DNA from: a bacterium CG_4_9_14_3_um_filter_65_15
GTDB taxonomy: Bacteria > Krumholzibacteriota > Krumholzibacteriia > LZORAL124-64-63
Assembly (NCBI GenBank): GCA_002790835.1
Contig: PFVX01000079.1
Span: forward strand, 197,621-261,620
Direction of reading: 5' to 3'
DNA length: 64,000 nt
The notes under the pieces were generated by a model, which ran no database searches, was not told the DNA's origin, and worked only from the letters and a program-made list of their open reading frames with translations. The translations under genes and the position numbers were made by a program. Shown one piece after another: positions 51,546 through 64,000 of the stretch; positions within the stretch are counted from its first letter, which is position 1, and each line of letters starts with the position of its first letter.

Positions 51546-53090
51546 TCAGCGGAAGATGGCTCCCATGCGGGCGGCGGCCTCCGGACTCAGGTGCACCTTG
51601 TCCACGGTGGTCTTGGTCTGGATTCCCGTGCCGTAGGTCGGATCCCACGACAGCGCACCGACGTTCACCAGGGGCACCGAGGTATCCAGGATGTCGTTCA
51701 GCACGGTGAGGAATTCGTTGGCGACCACACCGTAACCCTTGTTGTTGGGGTGGACCCCGTCGAGGGAGAACAGGGTGGCCGCGGCCGCGGCCACAATGTC
51801 TCCTTCGAACTGGGGCAGCAGCAACATGAAGTTGACCGCGGCGGTGGGGCCGTAGGCGCTGGTCCCGCCGGAGATCTCCGCCATCAGGGCGTTCATGTCG
51901 ACCACTTCCACCTGGGCATATCCGCTGGCGGTGACGCTGGCGGCCACGCCGGCGATGATCTGGTTGTATCCTCCGACGGCTCCGGCCACCGTAGTCACTT
52001 CGTCACCGGTCAGGGTGTAATTGGACGGCACTGCGTCGGTCAGGGGGTTGGCGGTGGCGGCCCAGCTCAGCACCGGGAAGGTGAAGAGCTCGACGTCGTC
52101 TTCCGCGTACCCCGCGGGCCAGGCGGGCGCGCCGACCGCGGCCAGGAACGTGGTCTCGTCGATGAAGTAGGGAATGCTCGTGATGCTGGGGATGTTGGCC
52201 GCCAGGATCAACGGCGCCCAGCCCGTGGACTGCACCATGCCGCCGGCCAGCAGCTGCATCATCTCGCTGTACTGCGCCTGGAAGGTGCCGGTGGTGGTGA
52301 TGTTCTCACCGAGCAGGGGGTTGTCGCCGACCACCGGGTTGCCGCCCAATGCGCCACCCAGGACGTCGTTGTTGCCGATCCAGACCGTGGCCAGAGAGGG
52401 ACCCTTGGCGATGGCCTGGCGGGCCATGGATGCGGTCTGATAGGTGATGGTCTTGGGTTGCCCGGTCAGGTCGGACACCACGGCCTCGGTTTCGGTGTTG
52501 CCGAAGAAGGTGGCGCGGTTGATGAAGTCGAAGAACGGGTTCGGGGATCCGTAGGGCGCGCCGTAGCTGGAAGCGCTGTCGGACGTGTTCAGGACTTCCC
52601 ACAATCGGGCACCCGGGACGCCCAGGTTGTGGTAGGGCGTGGGCACGGTGGCGGCCAGCAGCAGGCTCGGCACACTCACCAATGGTGTGTTCTCCCAGTT
52701 CAACCCACCGGTGTCGGTGTCGAAGTACATCACCCCGGCGGCGTTGGCCGGGCTGTCGGGTGTGGAACTGCCCACCCCCGGCCAGGCGATGTAGGGCTCG
52801 CTGAATTCCGAATTCCCGATGCTGTTGTCGAGACCCAGTTGTCCGGCGATCAGGCGGGGATAGCTGTAGTATTGCCCCGTCGGCATCCCGAAGCTGGTGA
52901 ACCCCACCAGGCCGGCGTCCTGGTAGCCCGCGGTCAGGCTGTTGCCCAAGGCGACGTACTTTCCGAAGACTTCCTCGCCCTGCGGTGCACGCAAGGTTGT
53001 GGGATGGCTGGGGTCGTCAGGTGAACATCCGGCCAGCACGAAGGCCAGCAGGAGGGTGATCGCAACGGTCAGAATCTGATTCTTCTTCAT
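51546..53090 (-). CDS. SGNH/GDSL-type hydrolase lipoprotein
   Basis: Lipobox FVLAGC; block I-like YVALGNSLTAGYQD; WIGNNDVLGGALG; DGVHPNNKGYGVVANEFL. Confidence 0.82.
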   Translation of the reverse strand: MKKNQILTVAITLLLAFVLAGCSPDDPSHPTTLRAPQGEEVFGKYVALGNSLTAGYQDAGLVGFTSFGMPTGQYYSYPRLIAGQLGLDNSIGNSEFSEPYIAWPGVGSSTPDSPANAAGVMYFDTDTGGLNWENTPLVSVPSLLLAATVPTPYHNLGVPGARLWEVLNTSDSASSYGAPYGSPNPFFDFINRATFFGNTETEAVVSDLTGQPKTITYQTASMARQAIAKGPSLATVWIGNNDVLGGALGGNPVVGDNPLLGENITTTGTFQAQYSEMMQLLAGGMVQSTGWAPLILAANIPSITSIPYFIDETTFLAAVGAPAWPAGYAEDDVELFTFPVLSWAATANPLTDAVPSNYTLTGDEVTTVAGAVGGYNQIIAGVAASVTASGYAQVEVVDMNALMAEISGGTSAYGPTAAVNFMLLLPQFEGDIVAAAAATLFSLDGVHPNNKGYGVVANEFLTVLNDILDTSVPLVNVGALSWDPTYGTGIQTKTTVDKVHLSPEAAARMGAIFR

Positions 53091-53105
53091 TTCCTGCACC
53101 TCCTT

Positions 53106-54416
53106 CTAGAAGTGATAGCCGAAGCCCACGCCAAGGATGTTGGCCACGGATGAGTAGGTCCCCACGGGGTAGGCGGGGTCGGGATTGGCACGGTTGCCGT
53201 TTTCGATGTTGGTGCGTTCGTCGCCGATCACGGCCATGTAACTCACGGTCACGTCGTAGTTGCCGGATTTGTAGGCGAACCCCAGCGAGTAGTCCTGACG
53301 GTCGCTGTCCGGGAGCAGGGGGCTGACCGCGGCCAGGGGCTGCGGAGTTGTGTCGTAAACGTAGCCGGCCATGAGCTTGATCTGGTCCGGTTTCCAGTCG
53401 TATTCCACACCGCAGCGGAGTTGCCAGGCGTCTTCGTAGTTGAATTCGATCGCCTGGTCCAGGTCGTCGTTGGTGAAATCCAGCCTGAGCTCGTCGAAGT
53501 GGTCCCAGCCGAAATAGACGTAATCCACTTCGCCCCGGAGCTTCTCGCTGAAGCGGTAGGAGACGGCGGCGGATTTGATGGAGGGCAGCTTGAACTGGGA
53601 CGAAATCGTCTGGTCCGATCCGCCCAGGCCGGCCAGCAGCTGGCTGGACCATGCATAACCGTCCTGGCCGGGAGCGATGACGTTGGCCAGGGTGGCGTCC
53701 TTGTTCTCGTAGTTCATGGTCTTGGCCATGTGGTACATGAGTCCGAAGGAGAGCTTGTCGTTGGGCCTGAACATCACGCCCATGGAGGGGGTGATGTCCG
53801 GTTCGCTGGTACCGCTGATCTCGGTGTCCAGGGCGTTGATGCCCAAGGTGGGGTGCAGGGTGTTGCGGTGAAGCTCCAGCTTCTGCACGGCCACGTCCAG
53901 ACCCACGGCCACGGCCAGGACTTCGTCGCACATGGCGAAGGACAGGGCCGGTGTCACGTAGATGGTCTGGATCTGCACGTCGTAACTGACCTGGCGGCCG
54001 ATCCAGGTCTCGGGATCCTGCCATTTGACACCCAGGCCGAAGGGCGCGTAGACCCCGACGCCGAAGGCCGTGTCGTTTGTCAAATGCGTGGTGTAGTAGG
54101 TCCCCGGAGAAATGTAGGTCTTGCTCTTGGTTTCGCCGGTGGCAGTTCCGCCCGAAAGGTCGGTCGCCTCGGAAAACTTGATTTTGGGGGCGATACCGAA
54201 AATGTTGACGTCGAGGTTGGACCCGGACAGGAAGCTGATACCGGCCGGGTTGTAGAACATGGCCGAGCCGTCGTCGGCTGTGGCGGTAAAGGCACAGCCC
54301 ATGGCGGTGGCCCGCGAACCGGCCTCGTAGATGCTGAAGCCGGCGGCAGCGGCCAACTGGGGCAGGACCATGGCAAGTCCCAACACCAGCAGCACGAAGG
54401 TCATGTTTCTGCGCAT
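53106..54416 (-). CDS. OmpP1/FadL/TodX family outer-membrane transport protein
   Basis: AAGFSIYEAGSRATAMGCAFTATADDGSAMFYNPAGISFLSG is the FadL N-terminal hallmark; beta-barrel ending in F. Confidence 0.93.
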   Translation of the reverse strand: MRRNMTFVLLVLGLAMVLPQLAAAAGFSIYEAGSRATAMGCAFTATADDGSAMFYNPAGISFLSGSNLDVNIFGIAPKIKFSEATDLSGGTATGETKSKTYISPGTYYTTHLTNDTAFGVGVYAPFGLGVKWQDPETWIGRQVSYDVQIQTIYVTPALSFAMCDEVLAVAVGLDVAVQKLELHRNTLHPTLGINALDTEISGTSEPDITPSMGVMFRPNDKLSFGLMYHMAKTMNYENKDATLANVIAPGQDGYAWSSQLLAGLGGSDQTISSQFKLPSIKSAAVSYRFSEKLRGEVDYVYFGWDHFDELRLDFTNDDLDQAIEFNYEDAWQLRCGVEYDWKPDQIKLMAGYVYDTTPQPLAAVSPLLPDSDRQDYSLGFAYKSGNYDVTVSYMAVIGDERTNIENGNRANPDPAYPVGTYSSVANILGVGFGYHF

Positions 54417-54588
54417 AACGCCTCCTCTGACAGGGGAATGATATCGCCTTGCAGGATCGCTTGCGATTTGGTCATAAAGGTGGACGAACCCTACCACATC
54501 CGTTCGGTGGTGCAACGGGAATTTCAATTCCCACGGTCCCTCGTCCCGTTGGGCGGGAACCATCCTGTCGCAGGAGAGTTTGAGGGAC

Positions 54589-55200
54589 ATGCGCCCCGCC
54601 GACCCCTGGAGATGGCCCTCCTGCTTCACCGCCGCCCTCCTGGTCCTCGGGGTTCTTTTCCTGCTGCCCCGCTCCTGGATTTTCCTGTTGCCCGGGACTC
54701 CCCACCTCATTCCGATCAGCCCCCGATCCGGCGGTGGCCGCTGGCTGGTCCTGCAGCCTGCGCCCGAGATCGAAGTCGTTCCCTTGCACACCCCTGCGAA
54801 GGAGACAGCGACCCCGCGCCCGCGGGAGAATCTCTTCGAGGCGGCGGACTGGTGGCGATCCGGTGTGGTGGTCGGGATCACCGCCGAAGGTGCGGCCCCG
54901 GTAGCGGGGTCAGCTCCGACCACGAAGCTCGACAGCCTCCAGGTGGCCCTGGATCTGCTGGGGTTCACCCCCGGTCTGCCGGCTGGCGCGCGGCCCGAAA
55001 GTCTCCTGGCCTCCCTGCTCAGGCTGCTGCGACTTGAGGACGGGTTGCGCTTCGACGAACTCAAACCCTACCTGCACGCCCTGTCCCGTTCCGCAGCGTA
55101 CGCCGACATCATGTCCCGGTCCGCGGATATGTTCGGGGATTTCCTGGACCAGGAGATCATGGTCACGCCCCGGGCCGAGAAACGGGGCGAATCGCCTTGA
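54589..55200 (+). CDS. Hypothetical protein with N-terminal TM segment
   Basis: MRPADPWRWPSCFTAALLVLGVLFLLPRSWIFLLPG; begins the forward block with STAS and PrsW-like genes. Confidence 0.5.
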   Translation: MRPADPWRWPSCFTAALLVLGVLFLLPRSWIFLLPGTPHLIPISPRSGGGRWLVLQPAPEIEVVPLHTPAKETATPRPRENLFEAADWWRSGVVVGITAEGAAPVAGSAPTTKLDSLQVALDLLGFTPGLPAGARPESLLASLLRLLRLEDGLRFDELKPYLHALSRSAAYADIMSRSADMFGDFLDQEIMVTPRAEKRGESP

Positions 55201-55264
55201 ATTCCCCGAAGTGGTGACTCAGAATGCCCCGACATGGCCCTGCAGGGGGGCGAAAGGGGTGTGC

Positions 55265-55549
55265 ATGTTCGCAATGACAAACCGGCCGGACGGCTCATGG
55301 CTCATGTCGGGCCGTCTCGACGCCGGCGCCGCCGAACAGGCCCGCTCCACCCTGGGTGCGATATCCGATACCTGCCGCCTCGATTGCTCCGAACTCGACT
55401 ACATCGCCAGCGTCGGCCTGGGACTGCTGGCCGCCACCCAGAAACGGCTGCTGGACCGGGGCTCGGAGCTCATCCTGACCAACCTGAGTCCCCACCTGCG
55501 CGAGGTGTTCCAGCTTTCCGGCTTCGAAAGCGTCTTCCGCCTTGAATGA
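55265..55549 (+). CDS. STAS-domain protein (anti-sigma factor antagonist-like)
   Basis: GSWLMSGRLDAGAAEQ..CRLDCSELDYIASVGLGLLAATQKRLLDRGSELILTNLSPHLREVFQLSGFESVFRLE. Confidence 0.85.
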   Translation: MFAMTNRPDGSWLMSGRLDAGAAEQARSTLGAISDTCRLDCSELDYIASVGLGLLAATQKRLLDRGSELILTNLSPHLREVFQLSGFESVFRLE

Positions 55550-56588
55550 CCTGTTGGCAATCGGGCTCGATCCCGTCACCCGGATTCTGATTGCCCTGGG
55601 TCCCATCCTGTTGCTGGTCGGTGCGTTCTATCTCCTGGACTCCCACCGCCTGGTCAGCCCGCGCCAGTTGCTTCAGGCCCTGCTGGCTGGAGGGGTGTGC
55701 GCCGGTGCAGGATTTGTCCTCAACAACCTCCTGCTGCGGCTTTCCGGACTGTCGCTGCTGGCATTTGCCATCATGGTCGCTCCGGTGGTCGAGGAACTTC
55801 TCAAGGCCGCATTCGGAGCCTGGCTGGTGCGGACAGGCCGGGTCGGATTCCTCATCGACGCAGCTCTGCTGGGCTTCGCTACCGGGGCCGGATTCGCCCT
55901 GGTGGAAAACATCTACTACCTGAATATGCTGGCGCGGTCGGACCTGCTGGTGTGGTCGGTGCGCGGTCTGGGCACCGCGGTCATGCACGGCGGCACCACG
56001 GCCATCTTCACGGTGATCTACTTCGGGATAACCCGCGGCAGGGGTGACCGCAGGCCCGGGGTGGCGGCGTTGGCGGTGGCCATCCTGCTGCACGGTCTGT
56101 TCAACCGGTTCCTGGTCCATCCGCTCTGGACCACCGCCGTGGCGATCCTTGTTGTGCCGCCTCTGCTCGCTGTTGCGTACAGGGTCGGCGAGCATCGCCT
56201 GCAGAACTGGTTGGGCACGGGCATGGACCGGGACCTGAAACTCCTGAGGCTGATCCGCAGCGGGGAGGTCGGCAGCTCTCCTCTCGGCCGGTACCTGCAG
56301 GAATTGCGGTCGCGCCTGGGTCCCGCCCGCGCGGTGGATGCTTTCTGTCTCCTGCGCCTGCAGGCCGAGTTGAACCTGGTTGTGCAGGGGGGGCTGTTGC
56401 TGCGGCAGAACGGACTGAAGGCGGAGTTGCCGGCGGAGGTGGGGGAGAAAATGGTCGAGTCCAGCCGGTTGCAACGCAGCCTGGGTCCGACCGGCCGTTT
56501 GGCCCTGCGCCAGGTCAGCCCATGGGACGGCGGCCACCCTTGGCAGTTGCGCAAGCTGGAACAATGGCGGCAGGAAATCCCCTCATAG
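55542..56588 (+). CDS. PrsW-family intramembrane metalloprotease-like membrane protein
   Basis: PVVEELLKAAFGAWLV; FATGAGFALVENIYYLN; GTAVMHGGTTAIFTVIYFG; ILLHGLFNRFLV; overlaps the STAS ORF. Confidence 0.82.
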   Translation: MNDLLAIGLDPVTRILIALGPILLLVGAFYLLDSHRLVSPRQLLQALLAGGVCAGAGFVLNNLLLRLSGLSLLAFAIMVAPVVEELLKAAFGAWLVRTGRVGFLIDAALLGFATGAGFALVENIYYLNMLARSDLLVWSVRGLGTAVMHGGTTAIFTVIYFGITRGRGDRRPGVAALAVAILLHGLFNRFLVHPLWTTAVAILVVPPLLAVAYRVGEHRLQNWLGTGMDRDLKLLRLIRSGEVGSSPLGRYLQELRSRLGPARAVDAFCLLRLQAELNLVVQGGLLLRQNGLKAELPAEVGEKMVESSRLQRSLGPTGRLALRQVSPWDGGHPWQLRKLEQWRQEIPS

Positions 56589-59500
56589 GTGTCGCACGAG
56601 GCCGCCCCCGGTCGGATCCACCCGGAATCCGTGCTTTTCATAAAACCGGCGCAGGAAGAACTGGGTGCGGATCGTCCGCACTCCCGCCGCCTTCATGCGG
56701 ATGGAGAATTCGTCCATGATGCCGGCGGCTATCCCGCGCTCGGCAAGGGCCCGATTCACGACCACCCCGTCCAGGAACACCGTCTCCTCGTCCAGGGGCC
56801 GGAACAGGGCTCCGGCGACGATCTGTTCGGACTGGTCCAGGACCACCAGGTGACGATCCTGCGGGCTGACGGTTTTGGGGAATCCGGCCTGCAGAAAGAG
56901 CCGGTAGAGGAAACCCACCTCGGAGGGAGAGGTCGGCTCGCCCACCGTGTAGACGATCCCCTTGCGGTCGGTCATGGTCGAGTGCACCACGACCTTGCTG
57001 TGACCCGCCTCGCCGAGTGTCTTGATCTCCACCCGTTGATCCCTGGTCCAGTGGGGGAACGCCATGCGTGTGAAGGCCAGACGCTCGTCGGGACCGGTCA
57101 ACTCGGATTGGAGTTCCGACAGTTCCACCATGCTCGAGGCGCGACGGTCCGGCGTCCGGTGCATGTGCTCCAGCAGGCGGCCGAACAGGGTCTCCGCCTT
57201 GCCCCCCAACCGGTGGAAGATGGTGCGCCGGTAGAGGGTGAACCGGGCGATCTCGGGCAGGCGGTCCAACCGGTAGAGGCTGAGGAGTTCCTGCACGATC
57301 TCCAGCCGGGCCTGGATCGGGGCTTCGGGGTTGATCCGATCCCACTCGTCATATCGCTCGATGGCGCCCTCGATGGCCAGGGGCGGGTGGTACCCGGCCT
57401 CGAGTCGCTCCAGGAACGCGGTCAGATCCTGGGTGAATTCCGGCCACATGGCGGTCGCGACAGCAGCGGAATCGGCCTGCAAAGAGGCGGAAAATTCGCC
57501 CAGCCAACGACCGGCCTCATCCATGCCCAGGGCTTCCACCACGGCGTCGAACAGCCAGGTTTTGTCGATGTAGAAATCCGTCCAGGGGTAGTGGCAGAGG
57601 GTGTGGTGGAGCATGTTGCGCCACAGGGGACGCAACAGGCTCAAGGGCCCGTCGTAGGGTTGCCATCCGGTCAGATTGTTCAGAAGCGCCCCGGTGCGGA
57701 AGTCGGGTTCGGGAACCACGATATTGTAGGGGCTGATGCGACCGGGAATGATGCGACGGCCGCTGTGCTGCCAGCCCCGGATCACGACGCTCATGGCCCG
57801 CACCAGAAGCTGGCGCCAGCGCATGCGCGACGGCAGGCGCGTGCCGGGACCGCGCGTGCTGCTGAACTCCCGGATCTTTTCCCATACCGTCAGGTCGCTG
57901 GTGTAGGCCATGGTCAGCGCGCCCAGGTCGGTACGGCTGCTGCCGAAGACCGGGACGACAGGGCGCTCCTCCGTGCAGCCGCTCAAGGTCAGGTACCAGT
58001 TGACGGTCTCTTCGATCGATTCCTCTTCGAGGTTGTGGAAAAGGATCAACTGCAGATCGAAGTGCTTGCCGGTCTGGGTGTTGATGCTGACCCGGAACCG
58101 CGAGTCCTCGAACCGCGAGATGATGCGCGAGACCCAGATCCCACCCGGCCCGATCTCGTCCAGCAGGCTGGCCTCGCCCTCGAAGGCGAGGTAGAGCGAT
58201 TCCCTCAGGAAGGTGGTCCCCACGAGAACGTCCTCCAGCCGGGAGGATTCCCGGGCGTTCAACCCTTCCTGGAAGGCGATCTTCCCCTCCCAGAGGGCAG
58301 GGTCCAGGCCGGCATATCCGGCATGCATACGGGTTTCGAACCATGCCCCGAGTTCCGCCATGATTGTGTCGGCGAGACGGGACAGTTCGGCATCCTCGTG
58401 GTGCCTGATCCAACTGAACAGCTCGGCGCGGATGGCGCTGTAGAATTCGAGATGATAGCGCCCGAAGTCGGCCAGCATGCGCAACAGATCACCGAAAATG
58501 GTGCGGGTCCTGTCGTCGGCGGGCCAGTCCAGCCGGTGCCGGTAATAGGCGAGCCGCTTGCGCAGGGCCGTCAGGTCATGCGGATGCAAACTGGCGTGGC
58601 TGATGGCCTTGAAACTCTCCTGATCCAGGAACGGCAGTCCGGATTCGATGAATACCGGCAGGTGGCGCTGGTAGTCCGGGTGGGGGTCGTCCAGCATCAG
58701 GATCTGGAAGGCCCGGCACCGGACTTCCTGCACCGGATGTTCCGCCAGGGTCTGCAACCGCGACCGGATGACCTCCACCAGCGGGCCATGGGCTCGTTTC
58801 AGCGCCGCATCCAGTTGAAAGATGGCGACGATGGCCGCCTCTGCAGCGCCGAACAGGGCCTGCGTGCACTGGTGGTTGACCTCGGCCAGGGTCGGCTCGA
58901 CGGTGACCGGTACGAGGCATTCCGGGTCGGTTTCTTCGGGACGCACGGGGAGGTGGACGTGGGGGGCTATTCCCTGCAGATCGGTATTCCATCCGGTGCG
59001 GCAGGGACTGAAACGAATCAGGGACGGGTTCGCGATCCACAGCAGAGGGTGCCGCACGAAGAGGCCCAGATCGATGAGCGGTGGAGTGCCGCCGTCCCCG
59101 CCCAGGTCATAACCCAGGTCCCCGATGCGGACCCGGGTCCCGCCCGCCTGGGCGATGGGCAGGGTCTGCCCGTTCCCGGTGTTGATCAGCCGTGGTCCGT
59201 CCGTGGTGATGGCATCCTCGAGCAGGCCGAGATCCCGAAAGAACCACCGGGGAATGCGGACACGTAAACCGTTGCACTCGAGTATCCGGTCGTTGCTGCG
59301 GTACATGTCACCGATGGCGGAAGCGAAATTGGTCTCGATGGTCTTGCGGCGCAAGGACCCTTTGGGAGTCAATTCGCCGTGGTCGGCGCTGAAATCGCGG
59401 TCCAGGATGGCGAAATTCACCACGCGTTCCCAGGGTGAGAGGGCGGAGTTCGACGCGGCGATGATGTGCTGGAAATAATGCCGCCGGCCCTCCTCGTCCT

Positions 59501-61223
59501 GGAGCGATTGCAGGATGTCGTCCGCGGGTTCGGGCACGATGAGCAGGGTGTTGTAGGCCCGGCCGTCTCCGGCCAGGAAAGTGCGCCGGATGCCGGGCAC
59601 CTGCTCGAACAGGCTTTCGACGGCCCGCGGGGCGATGGTCTGCCCCTTGTTGTTCTTGTAGATGTCCTTGATGCGGTCGACGATCTCCAGATGGTTGTCG
59701 CCGGTGCTGCGGAACAGGTCGCCGGTGGCCAACCACCAGTCGTCACTGCGGGGGCGGGGCACCTCGAGCGAACCGTTGGGGGCGGCCGGTTCCAGGTAAC
59801 GGGCGATGTAACAGCCGCTGACCTGAAGCTCTCCGGATTGGGCCAACCGGATCCGGGTGCCGGGCAGGGGAATCCCCACCGAGTCGGGCACGTAATCGTC
59901 GGGCGGGGTCATGGTCAGCCCGCCGGTGCCCTCGGTCATCCCGAATCCGCTGCACAGCTTGATGTCGTGGCGGTGGAAAAACCGGAACACCTTGGGGTCG
60001 AGATAACCGGCGGCCGAAATTCCCCAGCGAAGCCGTGCTCCCACCAGATTCCGCAGGTGGACGCCGAGGTCCTGGTCGGCATCCTCACCACGGGTGATTT
60101 CCCACACCCGTTCGGCGATCTGTTGCCAGCGCACCGGTACGCTGATCAGGCCCGTGGGCGCGACCTTGCCCAGCATGTCGAGCAGGGAGTCGGCGGAGGG
60201 ATTGTCGGCGAAGATGTAGGTGCCTCCCCAGAAGATGCTGCCCAGCATCTCCAGGAAGCGGCCGAAGGTGTGGAACAGCGGCAGATAGCAGAGCAGCACC
60301 TCGTCCCTGCCGACGGTGGGCAGGGCGGCGGCGCGGGCGAAGCGCTTGCTGACCAGGTTGCGCTGGGTGAAGGCCACGCCCTTGGGCAGACCCGTGCTGC
60401 CGGAGGTGAACATCACCGTGGCGGGATCCCTGAGGTTTCGTCGCGGTCGATCACTCAGGATCCCGTCGATTTCCGCGGCGCCCAGCGGGGACCGTTCGGC
60501 CTCCAGCCGCTTGATTCCCGGCCGGCCCACGCGAGGATCCGACATGAGGGTATAAATGACGAAGGGGCGCTTGACCTTGTCCCGCAGGGCGATCAACTGA
60601 TCGAGCCTGTCGGCGTTGTCGCAGATCGCCACGGTCAGCACAAGGCGGTCGAAGATCCACCCCAGGTGCTCTTCCTTGAAGTGGATGTTCAACGGCGCAA
60701 CCAGGATGCCCTCGGTCAGGCAGGCCAGGTCGCATACCGCCGACGCGAGTCCGTTGTTGCACAGGATTCCCACCCGTGGGCCGGGCACGGGGTTGGCGAC
60801 GTCGTCGGCCAGCCGGGGCGGGGGACCGTCCCGCCACAACACCGCTGCGGTGGCGCGGGCCAGTTCCCTGACCCGCAGGAAGCTCCAGTCATCCCGGTCG
60901 GCTCCGATGTGGGTCCGGAAGAGAATGTGGTCGGGAGCCTCGTCGGCTCGCTGTTCCAGGAGATCGCCGAGATCGAACCCGATGGCGTCGACCACCGCCA
61001 GGCACGTTTCGAACCATTCTTCGCGGGCGTCGGCGTCGGGCAGGGCACAAAGGAAGTCGGGCTTGCGGGTAACCCCGAGGAAGCGGCGCAGGGCGGAGGC
61101 CGGCTGGGGCAGCGCGGCGTCGGGAAGGGTGGCGGCGGCCGCAGAGACCAGGTTATGCGCGGCCTCGGCCGTAGCGGGCCCTTGCTCCCAGCCGGCCAGC
61201 AACCGTTCCAGATCCGTGTTCAT
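56583..61223 (-). CDS. 1546-aa multidomain protein: AMP-dependent acyl ligase, about 700-aa uncharacterised centre, GNAT-like C-terminus
   Basis: A3 VMFTSGSTGLPKGVAFTQRNL; A5 GFGMTEGTGG; A8 TGDLFRSTGDNHLEIVDRIKDIYKNNKGQTIAPRAVE; C-terminal VFLDGVVVNRALAERGIAAGIMDEFSIRMKAAGVRTIRTQFFLRRFYEKHGF typical of GNAT. Confidence 0.88.
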   Translation of the reverse strand: MNTDLERLLAGWEQGPATAEAAHNLVSAAAATLPDAALPQPASALRRFLGVTRKPDFLCALPDADAREEWFETCLAVVDAIGFDLGDLLEQRADEAPDHILFRTHIGADRDDWSFLRVRELARATAAVLWRDGPPPRLADDVANPVPGPRVGILCNNGLASAVCDLACLTEGILVAPLNIHFKEEHLGWIFDRLVLTVAICDNADRLDQLIALRDKVKRPFVIYTLMSDPRVGRPGIKRLEAERSPLGAAEIDGILSDRPRRNLRDPATVMFTSGSTGLPKGVAFTQRNLVSKRFARAAALPTVGRDEVLLCYLPLFHTFGRFLEMLGSIFWGGTYIFADNPSADSLLDMLGKVAPTGLISVPVRWQQIAERVWEITRGEDADQDLGVHLRNLVGARLRWGISAAGYLDPKVFRFFHRHDIKLCSGFGMTEGTGGLTMTPPDDYVPDSVGIPLPGTRIRLAQSGELQVSGCYIARYLEPAAPNGSLEVPRPRSDDWWLATGDLFRSTGDNHLEIVDRIKDIYKNNKGQTIAPRAVESLFEQVPGIRRTFLAGDGRAYNTLLIVPEPADDILQSLQDEEGRRHYFQHIIAASNSALSPWERVVNFAILDRDFSADHGELTPKGSLRRKTIETNFASAIGDMYRSNDRILECNGLRVRIPRWFFRDLGLLEDAITTDGPRLINTGNGQTLPIAQAGGTRVRIGDLGYDLGGDGGTPPLIDLGLFVRHPLLWIANPSLIRFSPCRTGWNTDLQGIAPHVHLPVRPEETDPECLVPVTVEPTLAEVNHQCTQALFGAAEAAIVAIFQLDAALKRAHGPLVEVIRSRLQTLAEHPVQEVRCRAFQILMLDDPHPDYQRHLPVFIESGLPFLDQESFKAISHASLHPHDLTALRKRLAYYRHRLDWPADDRTRTIFGDLLRMLADFGRYHLEFYSAIRAELFSWIRHHEDAELSRLADTIMAELGAWFETRMHAGYAGLDPALWEGKIAFQEGLNARESSRLEDVLVGTTFLRESLYLAFEGEASLLDEIGPGGIWVSRIISRFEDSRFRVSINTQTGKHFDLQLILFHNLEEESIEETVNWYLTLSGCTEERPVVPVFGSSRTDLGALTMAYTSDLTVWEKIREFSSTRGPGTRLPSRMRWRQLLVRAMSVVIRGWQHSGRRIIPGRISPYNIVVPEPDFRTGALLNNLTGWQPYDGPLSLLRPLWRNMLHHTLCHYPWTDFYIDKTWLFDAVVEALGMDEAGRWLGEFSASLQADSAAVATAMWPEFTQDLTAFLERLEAGYHPPLAIEGAIERYDEWDRINPEAPIQARLEIVQELLSLYRLDRLPEIARFTLYRRTIFHRLGGKAETLFGRLLEHMHRTPDRRASSMVELSELQSELTGPDERLAFTRMAFPHWTRDQRVEIKTLGEAGHSKVVVHSTMTDRKGIVYTVGEPTSPSEVGFLYRLFLQAGFPKTVSPQDRHLVVLDQSEQIVAGALFRPLDEETVFLDGVVVNRALAERGIAAGIMDEFSIRMKAAGVRTIRTQFFLRRFYEKHGFRVDPTGGGLVRHL

Positions 61224-61939
61224 GAAGACGGATTCCCGGCGCCGGCGTCGTCGAGCACCAGCCGGTAGCCGACACCGTGGACGGTCTGGATGTGGCGGGG
61301 ATTGTGATGGTCGTCTTCGACCAGCTTGCGCAGGGCCAGGATGAAATTGTCCACGGTGCGGGTGGTGGGGTAGGCGCCGAAGCCCCAGACCCGGTCCAGG
61401 ATCGTCTGGCGGTCGACGGCTTCACCCCGGTGCTCGCTGAGCAGGCGGATGATCATGGCCTCCTTCTCCTTCAGGGTCACGGTCCCGTCGGGGGTGTGGG
61501 CCTTGTAGCCGCGCAGGTCGATGACGGCGCGTCCGATCTTCAGTTCCGGCGTGACGTCCCGGGTCCGGAACCAGTCCTGGCGCCGGAAGATGGATTTGAT
61601 GCGCGCCAGGAGTTCCTGCAGCTCGAAGGGTTTGGTGATGTAGTCATCCCCGCCTTCGTCCAGGCCGCGGATCCGGTCCTGTCCCGCGCTGCGGGCGGTA
61701 ACGAAGAGCACGGGAACGCGGTCACCTTCGTGGCGGATCAGCCGACAGAAGGTGAAGCCGTCCATCCCGGGCAGCATGACGTCCAGGAGGATGAGGTCGC
61801 AGCCCCCGTCCCGCCAGAGGACTTCGCCTTCCTCGGCGCTCCCGGCCAGCAGCACCTCGTAGCCCTCGAGTTCGAGGTTGATCTGCAGGCCCTCGGCCAG
61901 GTGGGCGTCGTCTTCGACGACCAGGATGCGTCTCTTCAT
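61220..61939 (-). CDS. OmpR/PhoB-family response regulator
   Basis: RILVVEDDAHLAEGLQINLELEGYEV..LILLDVMLPGMDGFTFC..VTARSAGQDR..DDYITKPFELQELL; winged-helix C-terminus; 4-nt overlap with downstream ligase. Confidence 0.95.
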   Translation of the reverse strand: MKRRILVVEDDAHLAEGLQINLELEGYEVLLAGSAEEGEVLWRDGGCDLILLDVMLPGMDGFTFCRLIRHEGDRVPVLFVTARSAGQDRIRGLDEGGDDYITKPFELQELLARIKSIFRRQDWFRTRDVTPELKIGRAVIDLRGYKAHTPDGTVTLKEKEAMIIRLLSEHRGEAVDRQTILDRVWGFGAYPTTRTVDNFILALRKLVEDDHHNPRHIQTVHGVGYRLVLDDAGAGNPSS

Positions 61940-61963
61940 GGGCGACTCCCGTGGCGCAGCAGG

Positions 61964-63046
61964 TCAATCAGCCTGCCGCGCAGGAAAACTCAGCGTGAAG
62001 ACTGCGCCTTGGTCCGGTTCGCTGGTGAGTTCCACTTCACCGCCCAGCATCTCCATGTTTCGGCGCACCAGGTAGAGGCCAAGACCGGTTCCGGAGAATC
62101 GCCCGTCCAGCCTGCCGGTATAGAAACATTCGAAGACCCGATCCTGCAAGCGTCGGGGTATTCCGGGTCCGTCGTCCATCACCACCACCCGGTGACGATC
62201 TTTCCCGGGAATGACCTTCACGGTGACGTTCACGGGCCGGGGGCTGTGCTGGACGGCGTTGACCAGGAGATTGCGCAGGACCAGGGCCAGGGGAAGTCGA
62301 TGCCCACGGATATTGGTCCCGGATTCGGCCTCCAGGTTCATCACGGCCCGGTTCTCGGCGGCGAAGGCGGCCAGGTCGTCCAGGACCAGTCGGCATTCCT
62401 CCTCCAGGTCGAGGACTCCTCCGTGGCCGGAGGCGAACATGTCCGCGGCGCTCACCGAGAGGATGTCGTTGACGAGGTCCTCCAGCCGGATGACGTCCTC
62501 GATCATGCGGTCCTGGATGCGGATGCGGTCGGAGTCCTTCAGCTCGCGACGCGCCAGGGTCTCGGCGTAGAGCCGCAGGCTGGCCAGCGGGGTCTTGAAT
62601 TCGTGGGTGGCCGCGGTCATGAACAATTCCCGCGCCTGTTTGTAGCTGACTTCGCTGCGCCAGGCATGGATCAGAATGAAGGTGCCGGCGATCAGCAGCA
62701 GGATGAAGAACAGACCCTCGGAGAGGAACATCCGGCGGGTGTGCCGGTCGCGCTCCAGGATGGCGGCCTTCACCTCGGGATCGACCTGCGCGTTGAGGGA
62801 ACCCTCGGGGCCGCGGACGAAGATCAGGTCGGGGAAGGGTTCGGCCAGCCAGCGTTCCGGTTCCGCCCGGACCTGGGGTTCGGTCTGAATGAGGAAGGCC
62901 GCGTGCAGGCGGTCGTTGGTCAGCTTCTGCAGCTCCGATTCGGTGCGCGCCTTGGTTTCGGAGGTCAGGTAGTACACCCACCAGGTTCCCATGATCATCA
63001 GCAAGGCGACCAGGATACCATAGAGCAGGCCCAGCCAGATTTTCAC
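61964..63046 (-). CDS. Sensor histidine kinase
   Basis: Two TM helices; TAATHEFKTPLASLRLYAETLARRELKDSDRI H-box; LRNLLVNAVQHSPRP; MDDGPGIPRRLQDRVFECFYTG; GTGLGLYLVRRNMEMLGG; GTG start. Confidence 0.92.
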   Translation of the reverse strand: MKIWLGLLYGILVALLMIMGTWWVYYLTSETKARTESELQKLTNDRLHAAFLIQTEPQVRAEPERWLAEPFPDLIFVRGPEGSLNAQVDPEVKAAILERDRHTRRMFLSEGLFFILLLIAGTFILIHAWRSEVSYKQARELFMTAATHEFKTPLASLRLYAETLARRELKDSDRIRIQDRMIEDVIRLEDLVNDILSVSAADMFASGHGGVLDLEEECRLVLDDLAAFAAENRAVMNLEAESGTNIRGHRLPLALVLRNLLVNAVQHSPRPVNVTVKVIPGKDRHRVVVMDDGPGIPRRLQDRVFECFYTGRLDGRFSGTGLGLYLVRRNMEMLGGEVELTSEPDQGAVFTLSFPARQAD

Positions 63047-63531
63047 GTCGACCCTCCCGCAAGGGGAAACGGGGCGTGCAGGTCGGAGGCCGTTCGAGAT
63101 CCGGTAGCGGGATCCCGTTGCGAAGTCCAACAGGGAGACGGGGTGCGGGAGGTCGAGATCAGTCGGTTCATCTTCGGCAAGCTCACCCTCGAACAAGGTC
63201 TATCGTCGGTTGCATGGGTACCCATTCCAGCATCTTTCCGGTGGCCGGTCAATACCGTCGGCGACAGGTGCGTCGCCATTCCGGGTTTCGCCGGGACCCG
63301 CTGGGAATCAGCTCGGCCACCGTCTTGCCGGCATCGGACCGACGGGCGAGCCGGGCGTGCAGATCGCCGATAATGCCACTCCAGATTCCTCTAGCTGTCA
63401 CGACCGCCGACCTCTCCAAGTTTAGGGTTCATAACCCGGTTTGATCTCCCGGAACGCGACCCGAACTCGGAAGTTGGCGTGCGGTTCTCCGATTACCTTT
63501 CACCGACGGCGGGAAATCCCGGGAAGGGCAT

Positions 63532-64000
63532 GTGAAGGGCGGGGAAGACCAGACAACGTTCTCCGATCCTGTATTCGTGGCGCGACTACGAGACGAGAAG
63601 CGGCAGCTCTCGATGCCGTCGTCCATGCCTACCTGCCCCAGGTCCTGCGCGCCGCCCGTGGGGCGGGCCTCGCTGCGCAGCGGGCGCAGGACGTCACCCA
63701 GTCGGTGTTCCTGACCTTCATCCAGTCCCTCGGCCGCTTCGAGGGCCGGTCGCACGTCCGGACCTGGTTGTTCGGCATCCTCTAGCGGAAGTTGTCGGAG
63801 ACCTGGCGCACGGTGAAGCGCGAGAACCAGGCCGACGACGTCATGGATAAACGGTTCGCCCCCGACGGGACCTGGGCGCGTCCGCCCCGGCCGCGGCCGA
63901 GGAGACCTTGGACGCCGAGATCCGGGCGCACCTGGGTGAATGCCTGGAAGAGGTGAGTTGTGCCCCTAAGAATGTTTCCGGCCAGCTGCTTGCAATTGAC
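63532..64000 (+). pseudogene. Decayed ECF sigma-70 factor gene, continues past window end
   Basis: VFVARLRD (frame 1) then EAAALDAVVHAYLPQVLRAARGAGLAAQRAQDVTQSVFLTFIQSLGRFEGRSHVRTWLFGIL (frame 2), TAG at 63783-63785, read-through RKLSETWRTVKRENQADDVMDKRFAPDGTWA, then AAEETLDAEIRAHLGECLEEV in another frame. Confidence 0.75.

Follow-up and report, generated by a model that had tools for sequence, protein, structure and literature searches.

The window, the whole 64,000-nucleotide stretch analysed here (positions 197,621 to 261,620 of contig PFVX01000079.1, from the 3.39 Mb, 94-contig genome of the Krumholzibacteriota bacterium CG_4_9_14_3_um_filter_65_15), encodes a 1546-residue protein, here named BIG, whose family is single-copy, spans several phyla and is, within the literature searched, undescribed. 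BIG begins with an AMP-forming ligase region and ends with a GNAT domain, and most of what is surprising about it sits in between, where a beta-rich module and a helical solenoid are predicted to precede a protein-kinase-like fold. The separate folds are known; their combination, a shift of the ligase A10 lysine and a family-specific kinase-fold domain that is invisible to Pfam are undescribed as far as our searches reach. The BIG gene follows two other minus-strand genes, those for a histidine kinase and a response regulator (the kinase and the regulator, together the pair), and this pair is a local addition and not a required part of BIG. The gene and its regions are as follows.

56583..61223, minus strand: BIG, 1546 aa, comprising ligase, beta module, helical solenoid, kinase-like fold, helices and GNAT
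59295..60971, minus strand: AMP-forming acyl-CoA (coenzyme A) ligase region, residues 85-643 (Pfam, motif conservation)
59355..59363, minus strand: Lys621-Gly-Ser623, the A10 site (column counts over 69 rows, alignments)
58899..59294, minus strand: beta-rich module, residues 644-775 (AlphaFold2 secondary structure)
58317..58898, minus strand: helical solenoid, HEAT-like by appearance, residues 776-969 (AlphaFold2)
57444..58316, minus strand: protein-kinase-like fold, residues 970-1260 (AlphaFold2, Foldseek, column counts)
57039..57443, minus strand: helical linker region, residues 1261-1395 (AlphaFold2)
56586..57038, minus strand: GNAT domain, residues 1396-1546, core about 1454-1534 (Pfam, profile search, Foldseek)

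A single-copy family with a colinear architecture

Evidence that the architecture of BIG is not a product of chance came from one search over about 85,000 species genomes, which found relatives at 64 loci in public genomes, with about 36-71% identity and most of them full length and colinear. These relatives are distributed over Krumholzibacteriia, Bacteroidota (including Kapabacteria), Chlorobiota, Ignavibacteriota, Zixibacteria, Gemmatimonadota and Aminicenantes, and the closest named one belongs to a Candidatus Krumholzibacteriia genome (L006; 71% identity). Within the phylum of the window, BIG is encoded by 37 of 80 genomes, concentrated in one family (f1). The kinase-like domain was seen only inside BIG, with one copy per genome in all 37 positive genomes, which argues that the modules are not exchanged. 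Pfam matched AMP-binding, AMP-binding_C_3 and GNAT in 30 of 30 homologues, and all NCBIfam matches of BIG are far under the curated cut-offs, so no curated family covers the protein. No plasmid-borne homologues of its C-terminal 577 residues were found, and targeted full-text literature searches, which covered few subscription papers, returned no description of the architecture. One homologue (L097, in genome G008) contains a single in-frame TAA and could be either a damaged gene copy or a fault of the assembly. A role as a defence system was considered and rejected: PADLOC gave no match for BIG or the kinase and only weak receiver matches for the regulator, and BIG is single-copy and conserved within its family, not patchy.

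The ligase and GNAT ends

In the ligase region, Pfam places AMP-binding at residues 146-464 (E 4.7e-49) and AMP-binding_C_3 at 526-643 (E 1.4e-9), and the closest solved relative of the C-terminal half is a carboxylic acid reductase. Residue conservation was assessed by column counts over 69 homologue rows, and the ligase is the best-conserved part of the chain. The A3 (P-loop), A5, A7 and A8 motifs vary little or not at all, with ATP-binding and hinge motifs that read TSGSTGxPKG, GFGMTE, TGD and DRxKDIYKN. The canonical A10 lysine position is occupied by serine (Ser623) in 68 rows and by threonine in one, and two residues upstream lies Lys621, which is invariant. In three further ligases of this genome the site reads PTMK-VKR, PTRK-IKR and SSGK-IRR, compared with PKGS-LRR in BIG, and alignment to carboxylic acid reductases agrees that the lysine is displaced. 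A sequence-only reading of the window had described the ligase motifs as canonical; this holds for the P-loop, A5, A7 and A8 motifs of the ANL superfamily, but not for the A10 lysine. The near-invariant motifs, the invariance of Lys621 and the strong conservation of the region together make the ligase unlike what would be expected of a dead domain.

At the other end of the chain, several GNAT families of Pfam match residues of about 1454-1534, with two of these matches exceeding the curated cut-off of their family, and Foldseek of the GNAT region returned 5jph with a target template-modelling (TM) score of 0.69. Pfam, profile search and predicted fold are concordant, and the GNAT-like C-terminus that had been proposed from the sequence is a true GNAT; AlphaFold2 and Foldseek did not model it as anything else. 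In the motif A loop (Q/RxxGxG/A), Gly1497 is present in 66 of the 69 rows and glycine or alanine at 1499 in 59, with Q/K/R at the first position in 38 rows and alanine there in the BIG of the window. Judged from these columns, a putative CoA loop is recognisable across the family.

A predicted kinase-like fold in the middle region

What had been left as an "unknown" middle models as a kinase fold preceded by a helical solenoid and, before that, a beta module (residues 644-775), which had no Pfam match in BIG or in 30 homologues. AlphaFold2 modelled residues 644-1546 with 67 homologues at a predicted local distance difference test (pLDDT) score of 88.5 and a predicted TM score of 0.84, in the order beta module, antiparallel helices resembling HEAT repeats, then kinase fold. 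When this 903-residue model was searched with Foldseek, VPS34 and Tra1 came at the top, their alignments covering the helical and kinase regions, and GNATs came next. Residues 970-1300 modelled alone reached a pLDDT of 92.6 and gave 432 Foldseek matches in the PDB at E <= 0.001, of which the best 50 are all kinase-fold proteins; among the 50 listed are Eph receptors, CK2, PRPK, choline kinase, LicA and an antibiotic phosphotransferase. Foldseek assigned these matches a probability of 1.00, and their target TM scores are moderate (up to 0.57), which points to a distant relation between the middle of BIG and kinases.

Pfam gave no kinase match with the threshold relaxed to E 10, and in an hhalign comparison with 29 kinases from related genomes only 15 catalytic-loop columns aligned, which was not significant, so the kinase fold is read from the predicted structure. 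The weak hhalign match nonetheless agrees with the register of the catalytic loop. Kinase motifs were mapped from one conserved loop and the predicted secondary structure, not by residue-level superposition. By this mapping, the catalytic-loop equivalent is P-G-x-I-S/T-P-x-N, with an invariant asparagine and a variable residue at the aspartate position (1162), the equivalent of the beta-3 lysine is Q/H/L1058, and the DFG site has no conserved aspartate. BIG is therefore predicted to have the protein kinase fold but not the VAIK lysine, the HRD aspartate or the DFG aspartate, and on this model we infer that the domain is a pseudokinase. Five of its residues (Arg1044, His1054, Pro1160, Asn1167 and Trp1223) are invariant in all rows.

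The two-component pair is linked to BIG in one clade

The genes upstream of BIG are the following.

61964..63046, minus strand: sensor histidine kinase, 360 aa, GTG start (Pfam, sequence)
61220..61939, minus strand: PhoB/OmpR-type response regulator, 239 aa, its TGA overlapping the BIG start codon (Pfam)

The kinase has HisKA (139-200) and HATPase_c (250-357) domains together with two predicted membrane segments and a short extracytoplasmic stretch (judged by eye), and the regulator has a Response_reg receiver (5-115) and a Trans_reg_C winged helix (153-227), the domain set of a HisKA/OmpR two-component system. In domain content the pair is like PhoR/PhoB-like HisKA-OmpR systems, but its scores are far under every curated equivalog cut-off. 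Open reading frame (ORF) calls and the sequence bear out the layout claimed by the sequence-only reading, including 24 nt between the kinase stop and the regulator ATG and the 4 nt (ATGA) shared by the regulator TGA and the BIG ATG. A promoter scan gave no signal beyond chance with a sigma-70 consensus, which may not apply to this host.

The clade of the window within f1 is represented by 14 tree rows with readable upstream DNA, and the pair precedes BIG in these 14 rows. The BIG start codon overlaps or abuts the regulator stop at 16 of 16 distinct junctions in the clade, which supports co-translation there. None of 45 other BIG homologues with readable upstream DNA has the pair, so homologues routinely occur without the two-component genes. 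The operon of kinase, regulator and ligase is thus real and its synteny recurs in one clade, but it is not general, and the idea that BIG has a two-component system of its own gives way before these 45 loci.

Kinase orthologues occur in 34 of the 80 genomes of the phylum, and the pair and BIG dissociate both ways. In three genomes of one genus (G037, G038 and G039; loci L099, L100 and L110), the pair is at the same locus and BIG is gone, with PrsW kept in all three and the STAS, FadL and GDSL genes kept in two; in their congener G036 (L111), BIG sits in between. Seven genomes of the family (G040, G046, G047, G056 and G070-G072) have both the pair and BIG, not adjacent, and six genomes (G008, G009 and G041-G044) have BIG with no kinase match at E <= 1e-40. 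In an unrooted count over the tree rows whose state is known, a single change accounts for the linkage. The most economical account has BIG joined once in the family to an existing regulator locus and later lost in some members; the unrooted count is no proof of the direction of this change.

Two side observations concern these loci. Locus L112 (G043) has BIG without the pair, yet its enolase, DivIC and SNF-family symporter neighbours are those of the pair-bearing L113, which suggests local loss or later insertion of the pair. The unlinked pair lies near a conserved gene at L105-L107 and L103/L104 (genomes G070, G071, G056, G040 and G072), which at L107 encodes a C10-family peptidase with a FlgD-like domain.

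A proposed mechanism and its alternatives

From these features we infer an activity for BIG, its substrates, a transfer between its domains, a role for the middle region and control by the pair. The reading that we prefer, tentatively and in the knowledge that it may well be wrong, is that BIG is a single-copy multi-domain acyl-transfer enzyme, in which activation and transfer within one chain are plausible. The ligase region would bind ATP and a carboxylate to form acyl-AMP and then acyl-CoA; the carboxylate is probably fatty-acid-like, since the region is most closely related to long-chain acyl-CoA synthetases and carboxylic acid reductases. The GNAT domain would use a CoA-bound acyl group to acylate an amine, either of a small molecule or of a protein, with the solenoid and kinase-fold domain providing a scaffold and modules for acceptor binding or regulation. 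In one clade, the BIG gene would have been placed behind a pre-existing kinase-regulator pair and be translated from the same message, and its expression there would probably follow the pair. Consistent with an acyl-transfer enzyme are the recurrence of the colinear domain order across phyla, the presence among the listed structural matches of proteins whose ligands carry an amine (choline kinase, LicA and an antibiotic phosphotransferase), and the FadL-type fatty-acid transporter and GDSL esterase near BIG in the clade. Several points weigh against it. With serine in place of the canonical A10 lysine, adenylation may be weak, altered or absent, and no carrier-protein domain that could hand the acyl group between active sites was found in BIG. 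The FadL-GDSL linkage persists at L099 and L100, where BIG has been lost, so it may be regional synteny only, and outside the clade no neighbour of BIG is conserved beyond small-group synteny (tricarboxylic acid cycle genes, secreted PKD proteins, an antiporter). A stronger version, in which BIG founds a new acyl-transfer class that couples an AMP-forming ligase with a relocated catalytic lysine to a GNAT through a dead kinase fold binding the acceptor or a regulatory ligand, seems unlikely.

The main rival is a regulated protein acetyltransferase of the Pat/PatZ kind, in which the synthetase-like and middle regions would sense metabolites and control a GNAT that acetylates proteins from acetyl-CoA, the ligase making no acyl-CoA. 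The logic would be that of Pat/PatZ with an AMP-forming domain; the replaced A10 lysine and degenerate kinase fold are as in regulatory domains, and PatZ (9it0) is among the Foldseek matches of the GNAT region. This match, however, stands among many to GNATs, the synthetase of BIG is of the AMP-forming class and not the NDP-forming one (NDP, nucleoside diphosphate), and the invariant ATP-binding motifs and Lys621 argue for retained ligase catalysis, which leaves this rival a serious but doubtful one. GNAT lysine acetyltransferases are known to modify AMP-forming acyl-CoA synthetases at the A10 lysine (Acs/Pat/AcuA), and the GNAT of BIG could likewise acylate its own ligase in cis, for example at the invariant Lys621, as an in-chain switch on acyl-CoA synthesis. 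Target and enzyme would share one chain, but Lys621 lies away from the position that is usually acetylated and the switches that are known act in trans, so such a switch is improbable.

The five invariant residues of the kinase-like domain would fit catalysis by non-canonical residues, whether phosphorylation or AMPylation, as known from other atypical kinase folds, and BIG would then have three activities, but the equivalents of the beta-3 lysine, catalytic-loop aspartate and DFG aspartate are not conserved, and we consider this very improbable. The sequence-only reading, in which kinase and regulator make up a single dedicated signalling-enzyme unit with BIG, draws support from the overlap at 16 clade junctions and from the large co-occurrence of kinase and BIG in family f1. 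As a general rule it is largely refuted by the readable loci with BIG and no pair, by five genomes with the pair and no BIG (G004, G006 and G037-G039) and by the seven in which the two are unlinked, and little probability remains for it.

Neighbouring genes

A STAS-domain protein and a PrsW-type membrane protease (55034-56588, plus strand) are convergent on BIG through much of the clade, and the PrsW stop is within a few bases of the BIG stop. A GDSL esterase adjoins an OMPP1/FadL/TodX-type outer-membrane transporter (51546-55064, minus strand); many clade members (L006, L044, L153-L156 and L159) have this gene pair close to BIG, and it is also near the same locus in L099/L100. On the other side, a short ORF (63441-63785, plus strand) matches sigma-70 region 2 only and stops soon after; it is probably a broken or frameshifted extracytoplasmic function (ECF) sigma factor gene beside the operon.

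Comparison with known systems

Long-chain acyl-CoA synthetases and the adenylation domains of carboxylic acid reductases share AMP-binding, AMP-binding_C_3 and the A3, A5, A7 and A8 motifs with BIG, which differs by Ser623 at A10 with Lys621 upstream, by its C-terminal GNAT and by lacking both reductase and carrier domains. With its displaced lysine, BIG allows a direct test of whether ANL enzymes strictly need the adenylation lysine. PRPK/Bud32, choline kinase and eukaryotic-type protein kinases have a predicted fold in common with residues 970-1300 of BIG, in which their conserved lysine, catalytic aspartate, DFG aspartate and Pfam match are missing; current profile libraries miss this bacterial kinase-fold domain. 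Like BIG, VPS34 and the degenerate PIKK Tra1 have a helical solenoid followed by a kinase fold, but overall TM scores are 0.1-0.34 with a large root-mean-square deviation, and the likeness is one of shared architecture at most, with no claim to homology or function. The clade in which the pair joined BIG, or in which BIG was lost at the same locus, is a natural comparison for the gain and loss of regulator targets.

BIG belongs, as a variant, among the synthetase-GNAT fusions. In class I-alpha lysine acetyltransferases (Pat/PatZ/YfiQ), an NDP-forming synthetase domain is combined with a GNAT (PMC6456759), and BIG is like them in having a large acyl-CoA-synthetase-like region and then a single C-terminal GNAT (PMC6456759). 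BIG differs from the Pat-type definition in that its Pfam-assigned domain is AMP-forming and in that a beta module, a solenoid and a kinase fold precede the GNAT; by analogy, it could nevertheless work like a Pat-type enzyme. If BIG does activate and transfer an acyl group in one chain, it would be an AMP-forming counterpart to the Pat-type synthetase/GNAT acetyltransferases.

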